A stretch of 64,000 bases of DNA from Selaginella tamariscina (lineage: Eukaryota; Streptophyta; Lycopodiopsida; Selaginellales; Selaginellaceae): NCBI GenBank assembly GCA_003024785.1, contig PUQB01000435.1:1-64000 (forward strand), given 5' to 3'. This document shows, one piece after another, positions 2,533 to 29,085 of this stretch. Each line of letters opens with the position of its first letter. Within the stretch, counting starts at the first letter, position 1. Made by a program: the position numbers and the translations under genes. A model generated the notes under the pieces. It was not told the DNA's origin, searched no databases, and worked only from the letters and a program-made list of their open reading frames with translations.

Positions 2533-4170
2533 TCAAAGCTCGTCTCGTCCGCTTGCGTCTTTCAATTTCTGACCAACATCAGCAGCGGTCTTGGAAGCAG
2601 CCTCCTTGGCAGCTTCGTACTGTGACTTAGCCTGCTCGCTCCCGCTATCACTCGCAGCCTTATACTTCTCGCCGACCTTGGCCTTCGCCTCGTCTTATGT
2701 TGTGTACTATCCTTGGCACCCTTCACCTTCCCGCTGCTCTCCTGTGCGGTGCCCTTGGCCTTCTCGGTGCCCTCCTGTGCGGTGCCCTTGGCCTTCTCCG
2801 TGCCCTCCTGTGCGGTGCCCTTGGCCTTCTCCGTGCCCTCGTATGCGGTGCCCTTGGCCTCGTCTATCTTCTGTTGTGCACTCTCCTTGGCACCTTTCAC
2901 CTTCCCGCTGCTCTCCTGTGCGGTGCCCTTGGCCTTCTCGGTGCCCTCGTATGCAGTGCCCTTGGCCTTCTCGGCGCCCTCCTTTGCACTGCCCGTTACC
3001 TTATCCTTGGCTGCCTTGATCTTCTCACCAATCTGAGAGCTAGTCTCCTGAGCAGTACCTGTAGCCTTATCCTTGCCCTCCTGTGCAGAGCCAATTGCCT
3101 TGTCCTTGCCCGCCTTGACGCTCTCGCTAGCTTTGCCACCCGTCTCATGTGCTGAACCAGTTAGCTTGTCCTTGGCCTCCTTCAACTTTTCACTGGCCTC
3201 GCTACTCTTCTCATATGCAGCTTCGGCTGCCCTATCCTTGGCATCCGTCACCGTCTGTGCGGCTTCGTAGCCCGTCTGCTGTGCCTTCTCCGTTGCCATC
3301 TTTATCTTCTGGCTTGCCTCCGTACCAAGCTCGGAAGCCTTGTCCTTGGCACTTGCCACGTACCCCTCAGTTGTCTCCTTGGCACCAACGCTCTTCTCCT
3401 GACCCTTCTTCAGAGTCTCAGATGCTGTTCCCTTGGCGCTCTCAGTTGCTTCACTGCTCTTGTCCTGGACCTTGGATGCGGTGCTCGCTGCATTCTGCTT
3501 GGTACCTACACAAGTCATGTACCACACATAATCAATCCCTCGGTCCGAAGATCATAACCATGAATCATAAGAAACACGACAGTACGCAAAGTGCTTATTT
3601 AAAATTACTTGCAACTACTGAGATGCATGTCACAAGTGTGTTTAACGTTATTACCTGAAACTATCTGTGTGAGCTTCTCTTTGAACTTATGAACTTTTAA
3701 AAAGCAATCCAAGAAACGCAATCAATATCCGAATAAAAAAACGACTATGGTTATTTACCTGAAACAGTTTGTGAGATCTTCTCCTTGACTTCGTGCAATC
3801 TTTCGCTGGCCTTGCTGAGGACCTCGTTCACAATACCCTTGCTCTCCTCGGTCGATTCGGAGGTCTTCTTTGCCGCCTCAGAAGCAAGATCCTTCATTGC
3901 CTCGTTCTGGTCATTGGCTTCCCTGCGTATATGTAAAAAAGAACAAGCACATAATTAGATGAATAATCCATGGTGGTTCTCAAGCTGCCTAAAAAGCTTG
4001 GTTGGTTTGTTTGAACGGCCTAGGGGGCTTGTTAAACTGTGGAAATTCAAAAAGCATTAATGTGTACCCAATCATTTCTTCCGGGATTGTGCTTTGGATA
4101 TAAGGACTGCCAAAACAACAAAGAAAACAACCAAACTATTGAATCTATCTAAATACCATGAGGGTCTGCA

Positions 4171-11516: not shown

Positions 11517-13377
11517 TGTCATAGTTTTTACTATGACTCGACCCTTTACTTTGGACGTTGACTGTTGTTACCTACTGTACTATGTTGATGGACCCTAGAT
11601 GTAGTAGAAACAGGCCCCTTAGTGCACTTGGGTATCTGGTGATGGTCCGGCCGGGTGTCATTAGGTATTTGCAGGAAACTCTAAGCGAAGCTAGAACTTA
11701 CCTTCTAGAAACCCACCCCCAATTTTGACGTCCCGAATAGGCTGATTGGTCTTTGCAGATGAGTTTGGCGTGTTAAGTAGGGTTAGGAACACCCCTAGGG
11801 TTGACCTAACCCTAGGGTTGCCCTAACCCACGCCCTAAAACCCCCACCCCTTGGGTAGGGTTTAGGGGTAGGAGTAAGGGTGAGTTATAGGCTCATATTT
11901 AATTTATCTAAGGGGCTAAATTCAGTGCCAGCCCACTTACACATAAGGAAAAGAGGGGGGGGGCACATAAATAAGGTAGAGTATACGTAGGAGAGCTCCT
12001 GGGTTCATGAATGAGTTCGTTGCTCTTCTGCCGGTGCAAGCTTCAGCTTGTGTCGTTAAGGTACAACCCTCTGTTGTGCCGCCCTAACTTCCAGATGCCA
12101 GGGGTACGTCCCACCTTCGGGTAGCTTACCCTTAACGTTGGCGAATCCATGCCTGGGAGGTCTTGTCGGATGCACGTTCCAAGAGGCAGAGGTTGAGGCT
12201 TGTCTCCAGCCTCCTCCTCCACGTCAAGCTAGTGTAGCACTCACAGCCAAGCAAGGCACATCCGTGTCCTTGTCCAACTGTGGGCGTGGGATCTTGTTTG
12301 ACAGGTTCACGTTACCTGGTTCCTGAGGGTTCATTGAGGGATTCTAGAGTTGGCATTAGGAGCCACGTTTGTGGCACTTGGTGCAACTCTTGATCTAAGG
12401 GCTATGGCATGATAGCCCACATTGGGGAAGGCAGTGTCACATGGAGATGTGACACTGGGCTAAACGTCACATGGTGCAACGCCTAAGGCACGCCCTTGGG
12501 ATTATGTCATGGACTTGTCGCCAAGGGGTTGGATACTCTGACAAACAAACATGCTTGTGCTCGCGCTAGGTGCTAAGCCTTGGGCATTTGCCCAAGGGAA
12601 GTTAGGTCTCGTAACTAGGTGTGCTTAGGCACACTTGCTAGGGGAGTGTCCCCTTGGAATCCAGGGGTTGAACAACCTAAGCTTATTAGCAGAAGCCCTT
12701 TCGTAAGGCACTCACAAGGTCATGTACTTAGGGTTATCCAAACCTGGCCTTAGGGAGTTTGCTTTAGTAAACACTCGTGTTTGCCTTCGACGCACACTCG
12801 ACTAGCCCTAGGTCTAGGGTATGACTTGGCCACTCAAACCCTTAGGGGTTAGTCGTGGTTCAAGGTACTCTTGTCAGGGTTGTACTCCTAGATGAGGGTG
12901 ATTCCTCAAGGGGTAAGTGACGATGCCTTAGCTCTGTCTAGGGGTATGTGTGGAACACACGTCTCCTTGATGGGGGTTAGGGCATGAGCCTATCTAGGTC
13001 TTCTAGGGAAAGACCCTAAGTCAACTAGGGTTATCCCTCAAGTGTTTTGGGGGCAGACACTCTAGGGAGACTTAGGCTAAACCCTAAGTCAACTAGGGTT
13101 ATCCCTCAAGGGTTTTGGGGGTAGACACTCTAGGGAGACTTAGGCTAAACCCTAAGTCAACTAGGGTTATCCCTCAAGGGTTCTGGGGGCAGACATTCTA
13201 GGGAGACTTAGGCTAAACCCTAAGTCTCCTGTCCACTTGGGCATTAGAGTTTAACCCTAGGGGTCGTTGGGGTTGTTCTGGGAAACTTAGTGTTGCTCAC
13301 ACAGGGTGATGACGCCGAATGGCCACCTGGCAGCCACATGTTGCCATGTGTTGGCCCTTTGGGTTAAAACTCTGACA
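11517..13377 (+). repeat. 3' LTR of the LARD-like element
   Basis: About 1861 bp, the same family and orientation as 6042-7784. It is longer mainly because a segment of about 75 bp has been tandemly multiplied at 13010-13215. Confidence 0.9.
13010..13215 (+). repeat. 75-bp tandem triplication inside the 3' LTR
   Basis: Three successive copies of a unit starting CCCTAAGTCAACTAGGGTTA and ending in AGACTTAGGCTAAA. The left LTR has one copy, so the expansion arose after insertion or in the template RNA. Confidence 0.85.
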
Positions 13378-20736: not shown

Positions 20737-20745
20737 ATATATTGA
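20737..20745. repeat. Left target-site duplication of the MULE
   Basis: ATATATTGA, identical to 29077-29085. Confidence 0.8.
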
Positions 20746-20930
20746 GGGCTCGGCGAAAAGGAGGCTCCGGCTCAGGAGGCTTCATATTATTCTAGTATAT
20801 TCGCGGATATTCTAGGGTTATTCTAGCATATTCTAGCATATTCTCAAGAATATTCTAGAATATATAAGTTTTTTTAATATGCCGACTGGTTTAATATACG
20901 CCGACTGGCTTAATATATGCCCACTGGCTT
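20746..20930. repeat. Left terminal and subterminal repeats of the MULE
   Basis: The inverted terminus (20746-20785) is followed by repeated TATTCTAG/AGAATATTCT words (20790-20875). Then come three 20-bp-spaced copies of GCCGACTGGYTTAATATA (20881, 20900, 20919, the last with one change). The latter share GCCGACTG with the central array. Confidence 0.75.
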
Positions 20931-20959
20931 AATAAACATTATCCTAAACCCTAAACCAT

Positions 20960-23900
20960 TTATCCTTGTAGCACCGGTGGGTCATGAACTCTGTTGCAAT
21001 TCACCAGCAAACGGTGGACCTCCATGTCACTGAGCGATCGCCTTTGTAGAAAATATGTGACTTCCGGGTTCAAGCCAAGCACACGGCTATAGACGAAGTA
21101 CATGTGTACACATGGGCTCCAACTTTTGCTCTTCTGAAATGTAGAACAACTGCATGAAGGATAAGTATTAATAGTCACCTTTGCAGAGTCATTTCCTGCC
21201 GACACAACGAAAGCCTCCTTCCGTCCTCTAGCTGTCACTTCAACATTTCGCACACAACCTAAAAACGTCTTGGCCTTGCGGAAATTCTTCTCTTGTTCCT
21301 TAGACATTTTTGTTGGAGTCCGAACCATACGTCCTTCGAAAGGTGGAATTGTTGTAGATCCAGCTCCACGTGGTGGCGATGGTGTTTTGTCCTTCTGACC
21401 CTCATCTACTCTTCCTGCCATCCCCTGTAAACCTTCCAGAACAAAGCCTGCATCCTGTAGTTCTCTGACCTCCTCACTTGTCAGCTTCGTTTCCTTGAGC
21501 ACAGGCCAAACCGTTGGTGGTGTTGGAATACGTGACCGAAGAATTTTGCCGTTTGGCCGCGTGAAACACCCTGAATCTTTTGGGCAGAACCACATCATCT
21601 GTTGTACATACTCCTCATTCCCCAAGGCATCAATGTACATTCGTTTTCCATAGAATCCTGGTGCTGGCACTCTGCTTGGATAACCGATTGGTTTTCCACA
21701 CAGAGCAGTTCCTTCCTGATTCATCCCCAAACACTTAACCTTACTGGATGCTCCGATTCGTCTGATGGCCCACTCTGTTTGAGCAATCTCTCTCTCCGAA
21801 ACCTCTTCGAACCTTAACCTCTTTCTCCTGTTGTTTTGGACCACCCGCTCTGTGTACTCTACATCATGTCTGTGTGAACGTCGAGCATCAGACTGTTCTG
21901 TTCCTGTGACTGTTCTCCTAACAGTTTGCACTCGAACGTTAGTGGTACACGTGAACTCCGGGCTGGTCAAGTGTTCCTCGCCTTCCACCAGATTAATAAT
22001 TGTTGATGGAGATACACTTTTCCCCTCAGAGAGTTTGCGTTGCACTCGTTTCAACAGAGTTTCCTTCGAAGGCCCTGACCCTGTATACCTCCCTTCTATT
22101 GCCGCTTTCACCTTCGCACTCTGCATAACTGCATCGGTGAGGTCTAACATTGTCGCCTCCAGCAGTGGTACTCTTTTGGCCAATCTTGCTCTTCTTGCTC
22201 TCGTGAATCACTTCAGCATTGTTTGTAGTTGGAACGCTCGCGAGTCCTTCTTCTGTCATGTCTCCCAGTTCCGCCATGGAGATGTGGTCCTCATGCCTGA
22301 TCCACCAAGACAGCCATGTCTTCAAAGCTCGAATGTTTGACGCTCGTCCTTCCCAAAAGACTCGAGAATTGCCAGTTGTTCTTTCTTAGATTGTTCATTC
22401 AGTGCTGCAGGCCAGGCACGAGCAAGCTTCATGTGTTCTTCGCGATGTTCTTCTGCGATCCATTTCTTTGTCACCTGACGCACGGATTGCATAAAGTGAA
22501 ACAGACAGCTTCTTTCCCTCCCTTTCATCTTTGCTCCGTTGTTGAATACTTGGCGCAAGGCTATCCATATCGCTCCAGCCTCATCCGACATGAAACCAGC
22601 AAAGTTGACATTCTCCAAACCCTGCTTCTTACAAACCTCTAGCATTGTGTTCAAGAACTTCAGCACTGCAACATTATCTTCGCGGCACATATCTGCGTAA
22701 GCTATAGTCACCATGGATCTGACACTGCAAGAGAGCGTTAGATAACGAAGATTAGAAAGTGTTATGAAGAGTTTTACAACTTACAATGGGTCATAAAGGT
22801 GTATTCCAATTGTCGCCCAGTCTGGTATGCGGTGCGTGTGGTCCAGAACAACCCATTGATCATGAAGGTCTCCTCCACTTTGACACCTTCTGATGTACTC
22901 AACTCCTGAACCCGGTCCCTCAACTGTCATTTTGAAGATCAGAGGCTGCTCCTCAGCACCATGCAGTTCCATCCCTGGAACATGTATGACGTGAATGAAA
23001 GGTATTGGCAGCTTTGTCTTCAGCTCCAGAAGACCCTCGTAACCCTCTCTAAAGTGTGTCTCCTTCTGTCTTGATTGTGTAATCCAGTCCCGAGTCCTAA
23101 AGAAAAGGTCACGTCAGTGTGTAGAGATCTAAAAAAAATACCTTCGATGGTTTGTTAGAGGTTCAAGTTTTGAGAGTAAACCAGTGTACGAGACTTCTCC
23201 TTCTTCCTTGAAAAGTTCTTCAAAGATGAGCTCACGCGCGGCTTGAAACTCAATCACTCGTTGATTGGTTCGCGGACTGCTCTTTACCACGTTGCTGACA
23301 CTAGATCTGGCTCGCTGAACGTTTGAAGCTGACACTGAGGGGCTGACTGGATGCTGATGAACACCTCTGTGAATGAACAACCTTGTAAAAGAAATGTCGT
23401 CTGGCAGAATGTAGTACACATAAGCCGGACAAGTGTGCACCAGCAATGGCTCCTCTCCACAATGCTTACATTTTATGCCTATTACTTTGCCTGTCTCAGT
23501 TGTCTTTGCCTTCTCCACAGCACCCTTGAAGTGACATTCATTTGCTTTCTTCTCAAAAGCCAAGTAGGGGCAGTAGGATTGATGCATTGGAGATGTCCGA
23601 CACATGAACTTCGACTGACTCGCGCCGGAACATGCCAGTGTGTTGTGCTCGGGTGTGTCCAATGGTAGCAGCCATCCTTGCGATTCATCCCCGAGTACTT
23701 CTCTGTGCTTTCTGTCTTAGGGGGAAGTTCGAAAATGACATTTCCATTGTATATCTGCGGTAGTTCAGAGACTCGTTTAACTTCAGACGAACCAATGAGA
23801 TCCTTCCCTATCCTACATTTGTCTGCTCTTAGAAGACACACCAGCATGGATTCCTCACGCTCCTCTGTCCGCAACCTGAACAACGGGCCCTTTGCCGGGC

Positions 23901-24120
23901 ACAATGTGTAAAAGACAAACTGGTTTGATGCATTGCCTTCTGGTAACAACTCCACATCTTCTCCAGAACTCGCAGAAACTGACATCAATTGAACCACATG
24001 TATACTGAACCAACAAGGAATGTTGAAAGCAATGTGAAGATCATGTTCAAACACAAAAGCATTTCCATCTTCATCGACTGGGAAATCTTTGTCAATGCCT
24101 TCATAGGTAACTCTGGCCAT
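20960..24120 (-). CDS. MULE transposase with SWIM zinc finger
   Basis: DNA transposase expected to cut and paste the element. ATG at 24120. An N-terminal Cys/His region (CKHCGEEPLLVHTC...HRGVHQHPV, about 23.35-23.48 kb) resembles a WRKY/FLYWCH-type finger. The catalytic core has a first Asp in WVVLDHTHRIPDW (codon 22841-22843), a YADMCREDN strand and the D-x(n)-C-x-x-H signature, GFMSDEAGAIW (Asp codon 22583-22585) then RSCLFHF, which is typical of MULEs. A Cys cluster (CLGMNQEGTALCGKPIG ... WFCPKDSGCF) and a C-terminal SWIM finger (YPSCSCSTFQ...SPCVHMYF, about 21.10-21.16 kb) follow. Introns of 54 bp (ends near 23088-23141) and about 60 bp (about 22725-22784) have proper GT-AG. Frames shift near 23680, 22320 and 22170, so it is either dead or mis-sequenced. 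Confidence 0.8.
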
Positions 24121-24409
24121 GACAACGCAAGGAGAAAGCTCGGTGGTTTAGGAAAGCAAAGCAAAAGATTAAACACACTTTCTCTTACCAAAAAAAAATT
24201 ACAATCGTTAACAATAAACGTGAATACACGTTTGTATATAATTAATTCTATGCTGCCCAGTTCACAGTGTTCTTAATGATGTCCTCTCTAGTATCACCGA
24301 TTTAATTTAATTTCTACCTTTTATGATTTGAAATATCTTCACATTTACCAATTATTCACATATTTTAAAATAAACCCTAAATATTAATGTCACATTTATT
24401 CCGTAGGGT

Positions 24410-24600
24410 TCACTGTTTTCATTGCGGCTAGGGTTTTTTGGTAGATAGGGTTTACTGTTTCCATTGCGGCTAGGGTTCTTTCAATCTCAGATCTGTTTCC
24501 ACTGCGGTAGATCCAGAGGGTTTCTTCAATCTCAGATCTCAGAGTTACGGTTTCCACTGCGGCGCCATCCATTTCGACTCGATTCGTGCAGCGCCCAAGT
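24410..24600 (+). promoter_or_regulatory. Probable bidirectional promoter region of the MULE
   Basis: Lies between the transposase ATG (24120, minus) and the first exon-like unit of the plus gene. Contains repeated blocks of TTTCCATTGCGGCTAGGGTT and TTCAATCTCAGATCT (24415-24570). The CTAGGGTTT words resemble telo-box-like plant promoter motifs. The promoter role is inferred from position. Confidence 0.4.
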
Positions 24601-25584
24601 ATAACAATGGAGATTTCTGTGCCGATTTAGATTCTCGGCACCATCCTGCTCAGCCGGCGGCCACAAGGTATGTGTAATTTCTGTATTTTATGATTTGCTG
24701 CTCAAAGTATTTCTTTTTCCAGAGATATAGGGTCTTCTTATTTGTGCCGACTGAGAGCAACGGCACCATCCTGGTTCAGTCGGCAAACACAAGGTATCGT
24801 CGATTTATTTATTTTTTTCCTTGCGGCTCAAGTATACGTGTCACAATGTTTTTTTTTAGAGTTAATGGGTCTTTCCATTTGTGCCGACTGAGAGTGACGG
24901 CACCATCCTGGTTCAGTCGGCAAAAACAAGGTATTTTCGATTTGTTTTTTTTTGCTTTCTGGCTCAAGTATTCGTATCACAAGGTTTTTATTTTCAGAGT
25001 TAATGGGTCTTCCCATTTGTGCCGACTGAGAGTGACGGCACCATCCTAGTTCAGTCGGCAGCCACAAGGTATGTTCGATATATTTATTTTTTGCTTTCTG
25101 GATCATGTATTCGTATCACATTGTTTTTTTTCAGAGTTAATGTGTCTTCTCATTTGTGCCGACTGAGAGTGACGGCACCATCCTTCTTCAGTCGGCAGCC
25201 ACAAGGTATTTTGAATTTGTTTATATTTTGCTTGCGGCTCAAGTATCCGTATAACAATGTTTTTTTTCAGAGTTATAGTGTCTTCCCATTTGTGCCGACT
25301 GAGAGTGACGGCACCATCCTTCTTCAGTCGGCAGCCACAAGGTATTTTGAATTAGTTTTTTTTTTCTTTGCGTCTCAAGTATTTCTTTTAAAACAGTTAA
25401 TGGGTCTTCCCATTTGTGCCGTCTGAGAGGGACGGCACCATCCTATCTCAGTCGGCACCATTATCTCTTCTGTGCCGTCTGACAGAGTCGGCACAAACTA
25501 TCTCAGTCGGCAGGTTTTTTCTTCTACATCTCTCTGCCGACTGAGAGGGTCGGCAGCATTCTAGCTTGAGTCGGCAGCCACAAG
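24597..25584 (+). repeat. Tandem array of 71-nt exon-like units, each with splice sites and hairpin
   Basis: A founder-like unit (24597-24667) is followed by 24723-24793, 24860-24930, 24998-25068, 25135-25205 and 25271-25341. The last five are exactly 71 nt, preceded by T-rich tracts ending in AG and followed by GTAT. The spacers between units are 55-67 nt, so the monomer is about 137 bp. A sixth, fused unit runs about 25397-25584. Each unit contains TGCCGACTGA and, downstream, TCAGTCGGCA, a perfect 10-bp inverted repeat, with an inner CGGCAC that can pair with GTGCCG instead. Units at 24860, 24998, 25135 and 25397 carry an 8-codon upstream ORF (MGLPICAD type). 71 nt is not a multiple of three, so it is most simply a spliced 5' leader. 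Confidence 0.85.
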
Positions 25585-25648
25585 GTTAGTCATCTTTGTT
25601 TGTTTTTTATTTGACTCCTCATCAATTGACTGTGTGTTTACTTTCCAG

Positions 25649-28600
25649 AGTTCCCAAAATGGTGAGAGCTTCAAACGTCTACTAGAGACTGCGCCTGATG
25701 AAGAGCCACGGGAAGAGAAGAGGATATCGAAGCAGAAGCGAGGCAAGAGAGGAGAACCATCTAATGTAGCAAAGGAGGATCCTCCAGTGACTCAGTCTGG
25801 AGTAGTAGCAGTTGAGCAAGAACAGCCTCCACCAACAATCACAGATTTCCCGGAGAGCTCGTCGCAGTTGCCTCCTTCATCCGCTGAGGTTGCAGTCCTG
25901 AACGAGCAAGTGCAGATGACAGAGGCAGCTGAAGCTAGCGAGGACGACTTGGAGGAGGCAGTCAGCAAAAAGAGAGGCCGCGGGAAAGCTGATTCAAAAG
26001 GCAAGAAGGCGAAGAGCGATAAGGAGCCGAAGGAGTTATACAGCATACCGGCGAGCCTGCATTTGGAGAGCTCAGCAAACCTGCTCGACAAAATTACTAT
26101 CAAGGGACTTGGTGATCCTCCTGATGTGCCCATCTGCAGAATACATTCCAACGAGGTGGTTCGACGAGTGAACCCAGGGGACTTGGACAGGCTGGTGTCA
26201 TCGTTGAAGAAGGCTGGTTATCTACGCAACACGGCCTTGTTCATTCTGTCCATCGGAGATCGACTCACTGCTGAGGAGCTATCGGAGCTGTCGAAGGACA
26301 CGATTCAGTACGAGCAGCACCGGTCTTTCGAGCAAGCTCTTACTCAGCCGGAGTACAAACAGTGGGCTTCAAGGCTCTCAAACAGGAAGTTTAGCTGCTG
26401 GGACGGGAACCATAGGCTACAGGCTTTGCAGAAGCTGTACCGAGAGGATGCAGAGGACAACCAGCGATGGGCTATTCGCGTTCGATCGAGTTTCATCTCC
26501 ACGGAGAACCTCGACATTCTTCAACTGGTTTCGATGTTCCAATCGATTAACATGTGAGTATTTTCTTTTCTTTTTGTTAAGAGTTTAGACTTACAGTTTC
26601 GTTGAACAGATCTTCAGCAACATCTGTGGAAACAACGCTACCACATATTCTCCTCGCTGTAAAGGCGGTCTGCACTAGTACAGAAGGAACTCAGAAAATC
26701 CTCGAGTCACTCACGGAGGTTGATCGTCTTGAGGTGCGGAAGTGGAAGGAGAGTTCATCAGGAAAGACGGCTTGGCATCCTCTTCCGAACCTGATCTGCG
26801 CAAAGATACTTTTCAAGGTAACCTCCGATTTAATTTATAGGAAAGAAATTTTTAACTTTTCTATGTGCAGAACGAGATCGACGATGATCTCGACAGAGCA
26901 GTCACCAGTGCTAAGGGCAATCCACAGGTTGAGGTGAACCTGAAGCAGCTAGTATACAAGAAGCATGACAAGCGTATGCACAAGTTCCTCTCCATCATAG
27001 ACCCAGACTTGGGGGAGGAGTGGTTCCAGAAGGTGACAAACATCTCTCATAAGCAGTGTCGCTGGATGGGCATTGAGAAGCTGTATGCGATGTCAAGGGC
27101 GAAGATTCCAAACATGCTGCGACTCCGATACCTGAACAAGCTCACCCGTCTCGAATCCAAGGCAGAACAACAGACACTTGGGCTACCGGGCATGCAGGAC
27201 AAAGAGTGGATCAAGTGGTTCACCTTGGACTTATATTGGAAGGCTGTGCGCGAGGAAGCCATTCAGATCCTTAAGGGGTTGCGAGAGGATGGTGAAGAAG
27301 TTGGAACGGATGTCGACTTCATGAGCTGGTTTGACGAGATGAGAACTCGGAGCAAGTGCCTGGTCTTTCAGCCCTTCCATGACTGCATACGGTTCACTTA
27401 TTCGATGGAGCCGAATGAGTTTCTGGAGCGTGAGGAATCTGCGCGTCGGATGATATGGAGGTAAGCTTTCAATCCAGCATTGCTACTGTCTGACTTTGTG
27501 TTGCAGGTTCATACTGGCGAAGCAAATGACACCGTCCCATACGATGAAGCTGTGGACAGATCATACAAGCGAGCCTCACATGTGGTCGAAGAGCAGAGGA
27601 GCTCTAACACCGTTCGAACGGGAGCATGTTCCATTCTGGCTCGACTGTCCGTCGCAACAGCCACCAGCTTGGGAGAGCACACTATTCGACATGCACGCCA
27701 ATGATCTACCAGCGATTGTTTGGGAGCCAGAAGAAGTAGAGGCTATCAAGAAGAGCAAGATGAAGAAGACGGTGCGGAAGACAACTACACCTGCAAAGGG
27801 ATCGGGAGCGGGACCAAGCTCTTCTACAGCACCTCCGCCGGCATTCGACTTTACAATCAATGAGGTACAGCCACTTGTAGCTAGTTTGGACATCAAGGAC
27901 GACCTGATGACCTTCATCCCGACCCTGGCTGCATCCCGTGGATCCTACGACCTAGCTGTGTGCGACATGGAGGAGATGAGCAGGTCTTTCTTCGAGCCAG
28001 GTGCTTCCCAGACAGAGGTGTACACCAAGCTCCGAACAGGTTGACAGACTACATACGGTTGAGTCACAAACGTTGTTCCAGGAAGTGGTAGGTGAATACG
28101 GCTTCAACCTCATCATCCTCGACTTGCCCAATGAGCTTGTATATGGAGGTGCTAGCATCAACAAGGACATTGTGCAGCTAGATCCGGTGAAGTTTGAGGA
28201 GGCCTTGCAGTTCAGTGGAATGCACTTGGCAGCGAGTGGTTTCATGGTCGTCTTCGCGAGTTCTCCTTCTGTTTCGGCGGTGATTCAGGCGGCTGCAGTA
28301 ATCAACTTGGAGGTTGCAGGGACTTACAGCGTCTACCGTGCACGAGGCTGGGGATACCGTGACAAAATTAAGGTAAGCTAGCTATTCAAGTTCAAGTTTA
28401 ACTTGGTCTATGTGGCAGGATAACTTGTTAGTTCTCTTGGTGCTGCAAAGCTCTGAGAAGAAGTCGAAGAGGCCAAACCCTCTGGCGTTGACGAACACGA
28501 TCCTCGTCGACACTGCCGACCGTTATCAGGAGGCTTGGTAAGGAAGTGCTTTGCTATGTTTATCCTAATGGAAGATTGTGCAGGATTATGATTCAACCGA

Positions 28601-28881
28601 AGAGTGTTCGACTCATGCAGCTTTTGATCGAGCGTCTCAGTAGACCTGGCGACCTAGTCTGGGATATTGGTTCCGGAACCGGGTCATCATTGTTAGCTGC
28701 CGTCGAGCTCGGAAGGAATATTATAGGAACCGAGAAGAGTTTCGAACTCTCTAGGTTGGCAACAAACAAGCTTGCAGAGAACATTAGACCAGAAGAGTTA
28801 CCTACTCAAACACCTCCACGTCCAAGCGTAACTGGTGGTTCGAGAACTGCAGCTTTACTTAAGATGAAGAAGAAACTTTAG
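25649..28881 (+). CDS. ParB-like domain fused to N6/N4-type DNA methyltransferase fold
   Basis: The second gene of the MULE; its function is not known. Coding exons are about 25649-26554, 26611-26817, 26871-27461, 27507-28374, 28420-28538 and 28585-28881, with clean GT-AG introns of about 45-57 nt. It starts with a charged disordered region (nuclear-signal-like KKRGRGKADSKGKKAK). A ParB/Srx-like domain follows: VPICRIHSNEVVRRVN, LVSSLKKAGYL and the signature DGNHRLQAL at 26402-26428. After an unrecognised middle come methyltransferase motif IV (FNLIILDLPNEL, 28106-28141) and then motif I (WDIGSGTGSSLLAA, from 28660) with GRNIIGTEKSFELSRLA. IV-before-I is the beta-class order. DLPN replaces DPPY, so catalysis is doubtful. 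The first in-frame ATG is 25916; an earlier ATG at 25659 gives only 8 codons. One apparent 1-nt shift lies near 28035. Confidence 0.8.
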
Positions 28882-28959
28882 CTAATGTATATTGAGTAAT
28901 AAATTAAGCTAATATAAAAAAAAATTAAAAAGAAATACAACAGTTTTAATAGAATTCTT

Positions 28960-29076
28960 TTTTGCCGACTGAGGCCAATACTGCCGACCAGAAAGAATAT
29001 TCCAAAATATTCTAAATATTCTTGAATATTCGAGCCCAGGCCTCCTGGGCCCCAAGCCTCCAAAATGGCGACACTC
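28960..29076. repeat. Right terminal and subterminal repeats of the MULE
   Basis: TGCCGACTGAGG and TGCCGACCAG (28962-28992) are followed by AGAATATTCC, AAATATTCT and TTGAATATTCG words and the inverted terminus. This mirrors the left end. Confidence 0.75.
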
Positions 29077-29085
29077 ATATATTGA
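29077..29085. repeat. Right target-site duplication of the MULE
   Basis: ATATATTGA, identical to 20737-20745. A perfect 9-bp copy suggests fairly recent insertion. Confidence 0.8.

Follow-up and report, generated by a model that had tools for sequence, protein, structure and literature searches.

A brown-algal Sola1 transposon is reported to carry a ParB-like/methyltransferase gene, and green and red algal cases are cited beside it in the accessible part of that report (PMC12477816). In the plant element VANDAL21, tandem repeats outside the coding parts hold a 9-base motif to which VANC21 binds, and VANC causes loss of methylation, according to the accessible sections of PMC5735166. Here we describe an 8.3-kb DNA transposon at positions 20746-29076 of a 64,000-nucleotide stretch of the Selaginella tamariscina genome (the first 64,000 positions of contig PUQB01000435.1, C766:1-64000 in our scan; hereafter the window), in which a minus-strand transposase-like gene and a divergent plus-strand gene, hereafter the accessory gene, lie between the same inverted ends. 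We found that this two-gene layout recurs across the host genome, that the accessory protein has an N6/N4-methyltransferase-type C-terminus, and that a 9-bp motif, TGCCGACTG, is iterated in the non-coding DNA of the element.

When comparing the locus with described systems, we find the closest to be the algal case, VANDAL21, MuDR and virus-borne Mariner elements. In the algal DNA transposon, as in the present one, a gene on the opposite strand has a product of some 1000 amino acids; for the algal product the authors report ParB-like and N4/N6 DNA methyltransferase domains (PMC12477816, accessible part; compared by description only). The algal element has a Sola1 transposase, spans 21.5 kb and resides in an alga, whereas the present element is MULE-like (Mutator-like element), spans 8.3 kb and resides in a land plant; here, moreover, the ParB part is without profile support and the expected catalytic motif is changed. 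The first-pass annotation had known of no described transposon with this pairing, a claim that the algal reports overturn. With VANDAL21 (Hiun) the element shares a plant host, 9-base motifs in non-coding tandem repeats and an extra gene beside the transposase; VANDAL21 carries vanA, vanB and vanC, and binding and hypomethylation have been demonstrated for VANC (PMC5735166, accessible sections), whereas for the present protein they are proposed. MuDR is likewise a MULE with a transposase gene (mudrA) and a second gene (mudrB), and in the accessible text of a survey of MULEs their ends are commonly hundreds of base pairs long, compared with about 40 bp in this element (PMC6446971). Virus-borne Mariner elements, as far as the accessible part of PMC3627910 describes them, are also eukaryotic DNA transposons that encode a methyltransferase; they differ in having an endonuclease and in a methyltransferase of the Methyltransf_26 or C5-cytosine type. 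A full-text literature search, with subscription papers mostly outside its scope, returned no paper on ParB, methyltransferase and transposon together with Selaginella or Mutator-like, and the words methyltransferase and ParB are absent from the main text of the MULE survey in its accessible form (PMC6446971).

Both ends of the element lie exactly where the first-pass annotation had placed them, and the 9-bp target duplication that it had noted, ATATATTGA, flanks them. The terminal inverted repeats are about 40 bp long and imperfect, and they were found at both ends in all seven young copies, a set made up of the window copy and six further full-length copies (L049-L054, on C1137, C180, C726, C1170, C512 and C449). 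Each of the six siblings contains the whole element at 99.3-99.75% identity, with 3-17 substitutions per ~8.3 kb among the seven copies (0.04-0.20%; indels not counted), and the remaining differences are small indels, presumably of the sort typical of long-read assemblies. An exact 9-bp duplication flanks four of the seven (window, C1137, C180 and C726), seven of nine positions match by eye at C1170, and at the ends of C512 and C449 a target duplication was looked for and not found. Four older copies were also examined for their ends: the 9-bp duplication is exact at C158, agrees at eight of nine positions at C1 and is gapped at C583 (the latter two by eye), and the right end of C731 was not found within the fetched stretch. 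Judged from these sequences, the family is recently active.

Next, we counted copies across the host genome (300,702,823 bases in 1391 contigs), using 30-base markers with up to three mismatches, for which each reversed-pattern control gave zero. The left end matched 367 times, the transposase 426, the accessory gene 409 and the right end 324, a ratio of transposase to accessory gene of about 1:1; the genes are therefore at least as common as the ends, and the excess of ends without the plus-strand gene that the first-pass annotation had named as contrary evidence is not seen. The layout was counted among perfect matches listed only; these gave 99 places for the transposase, on contigs as far as C527, and 81 for the accessory gene, as far as C522. 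A transposase place stood in the expected order and strand, 1.5-12 kb away, at 62 of the 81 listed accessory places, in comparison to 4 on the opposite strand and 6 in reverse order in the controls, and the spacing among the matches listed was mostly 3.3-3.9 kb with a peak at ~3.82 kb. Together with the six full-length siblings, this is the repeated two-gene layout within the same ends that had been proposed as a check. Of the 53 left ends listed, 44 were followed 1.7-1.8 kb further in by a listed transposase and 9 were not; left and right ends formed 21 listed pairs within 20 kb, with a spacing of 7.9-8.7 kb in 18 of them and of 6.6 kb in the shortest. Full-length copies thus predominate among the listed matches; the markers would miss derivatives that are diverged or short and whose ends are altered. 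A protein search of the genome with the accessory protein gave at least 161 matches (98 of 2511 candidates scored). We also observe right ends standing tail to tail about 812 bp apart at C607:247703/248514 and C658:221619/222432, perhaps a duplicated contig stretch. That contamination or mis-assembly joined a bacterial gene to a plant transposon, a concern already raised at first pass, is extremely improbable given the marker matches on many contigs, the GT-AG introns of the accessory gene in all seven young copies and the target duplications in the copies examined.

The window holds 15 copies of the motif TGCCGACTG, whereas 100 shuffles gave an expectation of 0.30 and none of them reached 15. 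One exact copy lies in the left subterminal block, 13 between the two genes and one near the right end, with none in exons. Five units of the central array hold TGCCGACTG and its inverse 32 bp apart, and the 30-mer at the core of the array unit has 1561 genome matches with up to two mismatches, as opposed to none for the control; the copy on C14 has an enlarged array. Exact sites number 15-16 in the seven young copies. Each of the four stretches tested is able to form a single-stranded fold (z -2.7 to -4.4), and splice-like AG and GT border the array units. This placement bears on whether the accessory protein could be a structural transposition factor, which would bind subterminal and central motifs and join the ends or guide integration with no role in silencing. 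The motif is present near both ends as well as centrally, the gene is retained at about 1:1 with the transposase, and maize mudrB is apparently needed for integration (PMC6446971, accessible text); however, 13 of the 15 exact copies sit in the central array and not at the ends, and we regard a purely structural role as unlikely.

Upon closer examination of the accessory gene, we find it unbroken in two of the seven young copies (C1137 and C512), where it encodes 992 amino acids in six exons separated by five introns of 45-56 bp, all with GT-AG borders in the seven copies. The multi-exon plus-strand gene of the first-pass annotation is thereby upheld, and recurs within the same ends in the six full-length siblings. 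Compared with each of the six siblings, the window copy has two gaps that change the frame, one near 25672 and one near 28033. A seven-exon, 973-amino-acid gene model was rejected because its 64-bp 'intron' at 28018-28081 and its missing start correspond, by comparison with the siblings, to two small gaps of the window copy; the copy on C722 was considered as a mosaic with a swapped exon 1, and this was also rejected, since its DNA keeps 93-96% identity throughout the stretch fetched and has frame breaks. Only one protein relative was found among 8000 candidates scored from a 5.8-billion set, SELMODRAFT_402005 of Selaginella moellendorffii (E 1e-67), an incomplete gene model to judge by its gaps, and a two-sequence profile gave no match among 8000 scored candidates. 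An origin by capture of a prokaryote-type protein, as suggested earlier, is conjectural.

To examine selection, we compared nine older or more diverged copies with C1137, comparisons that share ancestry and are not independent of each other. Codon positions change in the order 3>1>2 in all nine, with third positions changing at approximately the intron rate. In old copies, C-to-T changes reach 3.7-30.8% at CG, 2.0-23.6% at CHG and 1.0-9.6% at CHH sites, and A/T transitions 1.2-4.2%. Decay of this kind specific to CG and CHG was seen in the old copies on C1, C158, C731, C1184, C540, C606 and C91 (L007, L008, L011, L012, L021-L023). Because of the C-to-T excess at these sites in old copies, the ratio of nonsynonymous to synonymous changes (N/S) was recounted with CG/CHG-context sites removed; relative to expectation it is lowest at residues 136-300 (0.24) and from residue 681 on (0.27), followed by the middle part (0.39) and the N-terminal tail (0.71). 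By this measure the accessory protein is under purifying selection. CG/CHG decay is the expected trace of plant cytosine methylation on silenced copies, and the host has probably methylated the old copies of this family. The N/S values, well under expectation, also speak to whether the plus-strand gene could be a functionless captured passenger, as in Pack-MULEs. MULEs often carry gene fragments (PMC6446971, accessible text), and the accessory gene is frame-broken in five of the seven young copies as assembled; nevertheless, a full-length multi-exon gene kept at about 1:1 with its transposase and with a relative in S. moellendorffii makes a mere passenger highly improbable.

Next, we investigated the methyltransferase part of the protein. 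The Pfam family N6_N4_Mtase matches its C-terminus at residues 898-953 (E 1.1e-8, 35.8 bits with a cut-off of 26.7), the match spanning 56 residues at profile positions 164-219 of 221, and this C-terminal region is also matched by families and genes of phage DNA methyltransferases, one listed phage gene being annotated as group beta. Motif X/I, with GSGTG, is conserved in the young copies, and a catalytic region placed before motif X/I is the order of the beta class of N6/N4 DNA methyltransferases. The expected motif IV, (D/N/S)PP(Y/F/W), reads DLPN in the window copy, within LDLPNEL at residues 770-776, and (I/V)LDLPNEL was found in all 35 other distinct copies read, decayed ones included, with four further loci lacking coverage; DLPN was aligned to motif IV by position and context, the catalytic half having no profile match of its own. 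Thus, of the beta-class motifs proposed at first pass, the C-terminal part stands and the catalytic motif is altered. In another reading, the accessory protein would be catalytically active on DNA, as an N6-adenine or N4-cytosine methyltransferase, and would bind its own element and mark it, a role that the Ectocarpus authors suggest for the similar algal protein in the accessible part of PMC12477816. The Pfam match, the conserved GSGTG motif and the purifying selection on the methyltransferase region would fit such an enzyme; against this, DLPN stands in all 35 of those copies, and the Pfam match covers only those 56 residues, the catalytic half being diverged, so that an active enzyme appears rather unlikely. 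Since DLPN occupies the expected catalytic motif in every copy read, marking of the element's own DNA by methylation is doubtful and the methyltransferase fold is probably used for DNA or cofactor binding.

The first-pass annotation had also read the string DGNHRLQAL as ParB-like. The string is present, at residues 249-257 of the 992-residue protein, and a further stretch ends in SLKKAGYL (residues 182-189); both resemble ParB boxes, a resemblance that profile tests did not support. A Pfam scan of the accessory protein up to E 10 gave no ParB match, and NCBIfam, PDB sequences, phages and plasmids gave no ParB support. Using hhalign against four ParB domains, the score of 12.7 was equalled by 12 of 60 column shuffles, and AlphaFold on the ParB-candidate region with four sequences reached a mean pLDDT of 35.9, with no usable model. 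The N-terminal region may nonetheless be a diverged member of the ParB group.

The transposase-like gene is likewise multi-exon, and its assignment as a MULE-type transposase at first pass was retained in part. By eye it holds, in order, two catalytic-type Asp residues, C-x2-H and SWIM-type cysteines. The MULE transposase profile gave no match with the 1019-amino-acid joined query or its core, the SWIM profile scored 16.3 and 13.9 bits, under its cut-off of 19.6, and a protein-database search returned no relative among 7999 scored candidates. 'MULE-like' is the best filing for the gene and the element because of the 9-bp duplication, the inverted ends, the Asp...Asp...C-x2-H order and the C-terminal SWIM-type cysteines. 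A T-run at about window position 22354 is short in six of the seven young copies, with C726 and two older copies having the longer form, and a CC at about 23572 is short in three of the seven. These frame gaps may be assembly error or real damage; if real, many copies would rely on a few intact ones.

Drawing these observations together, we tentatively favour an anti-silencing role for the accessory protein, comparable to that of VANC in VANDAL elements. In this reading, two divergent genes multiply together within one recently active MULE-like element of a Selaginella-type lycophyte, and copies of the element would be silenced by cytosine methylation of the host plant; the accessory protein would bind the TGCCGACTG array and the subterminal sites of its family, and this binding would relieve the silencing. 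Among the roles offered at first pass, namely to mark, recognise or unsilence the element's own DNA, the comparison with VANC has gained from the 9-bp motif array in non-coding DNA, and methylation marking has lost from DLPN. VANC is not known to be a methyltransferase-fold protein, and neither is mudrB. Several observations weigh against this anti-silencing reading. Profile searches in Pfam, NCBIfam, PDB, phages and plasmids and by hhalign support neither ParB nor another DNA-binding domain. Weak matches to methyltransferases not acting on DNA occur too, with NCBIfam CpaM at 3.5e-5 beside a DNA methyltransferase at 3.6e-5 and a ribosomal L11 methyltransferase at 0.057, and because the weak matches in NCBIfam and PDB include DNA and other methyltransferases, this part may have DNA or another class of molecule as its substrate. 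Exact TGCCGACTG sites number only 0-8 in ten older copies (some loci partial), a difference from the young copies that may reflect either recent growth or decay. The array units may be repeated 5' exons or may have spread for another reason. Lastly, in each of the seven young copies at least one of the two genes is broken in the assembly.

Table 1. Features of the element in the window, in order of position.
Feature	Position	Strand	Remarks
Target-site duplication, left copy	20737..20745		ATATATTGA
Left terminal inverted repeat	20746..20785		most fetched siblings start with GGGTCTCGGCGAAAAGGAGGC
Left subterminal motif	20877..20933	+	three 19-bp tandem units around GCCGACTG; one exact TGCCGACTG
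Transposase exon 3	20960..22724	-	second catalytic-type Asp (FMSDEAGAIW), C-x2-H, SWIM-type cysteines; assembled frame gaps relative to some siblings
Transposase exon 2	22785..23096	-	first catalytic-type Asp, VVLDHTHR
Transposase exon 1	23142..24120	-	start ATG, Cys/His-rich N-terminus; one frame gap in window copy
Divergent intergenic region	24121..25659	+	array of ~137-bp units, 24714-25457 (TRF), related sequence to ~25600
Accessory exon 1	25660..26553	+	start ATG, Lys/Arg-rich tail, DGNHRLQAL region; gap near 25672 relative to siblings
Accessory exon 2	26610..26817	+	GT-AG in seven of seven copies
Accessory exon 3	26871..27460	+	
Accessory exon 4	27507..28372	+	ILDLPNELVYGG at expected catalytic motif; gap near 28033 relative to siblings
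Accessory exon 5	28419..28537	+	
Accessory exon 6	28584..28881	+	methyltransferase motif X/I (VWDIGSGTG), stop codon
Right subterminal TGCCGACTGA and second, partial site	28963..28990	+	
Right terminal inverted repeat	29035..29076		
Target-site duplication, right copy	29077..29085		

Elsewhere in the window, a 329-codon open stretch on the minus strand at 2562-3551 contains TAQEGTEKAKG-type repeats, which are typical of group-3 late embryogenesis abundant (LEA) proteins of desiccation protection and fit a desiccation-tolerant host. We also observe about three 68-bp tandem units at 13013-13226, with 96% matches. An Rfam scan of the window gave no match at gathering scores.

As far as our literature searches reach, the new features are the land-plant host, the MULE-like element with a 9-bp duplication, the altered catalytic motif, and VANC-like motif arrays in a very recently active family. 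It is possible, although we hold it with reserve, that in this land-plant element a methyltransferase-fold protein lacking the canonical catalytic motif has become an anti-silencing factor with sequence specificity, its target being the 9-bp motif iterated within the element. Such a solution would be convergent with VANC and would draw on accessory proteins of a class reported until now from transposons of algae. The mechanism of escape from DNA methylation in plants is understood for only a handful of transposon accessory proteins. If the proposal is true, algal methyltransferase accessory genes would extend to land plants and to another type of transposon, and the fold may be retained in this lineage without normal methyl transfer. 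Overall, the many near-identical copies, the candidate target motif and the conserved protein would make an independent anti-silencing route directly testable in a lycophyte.

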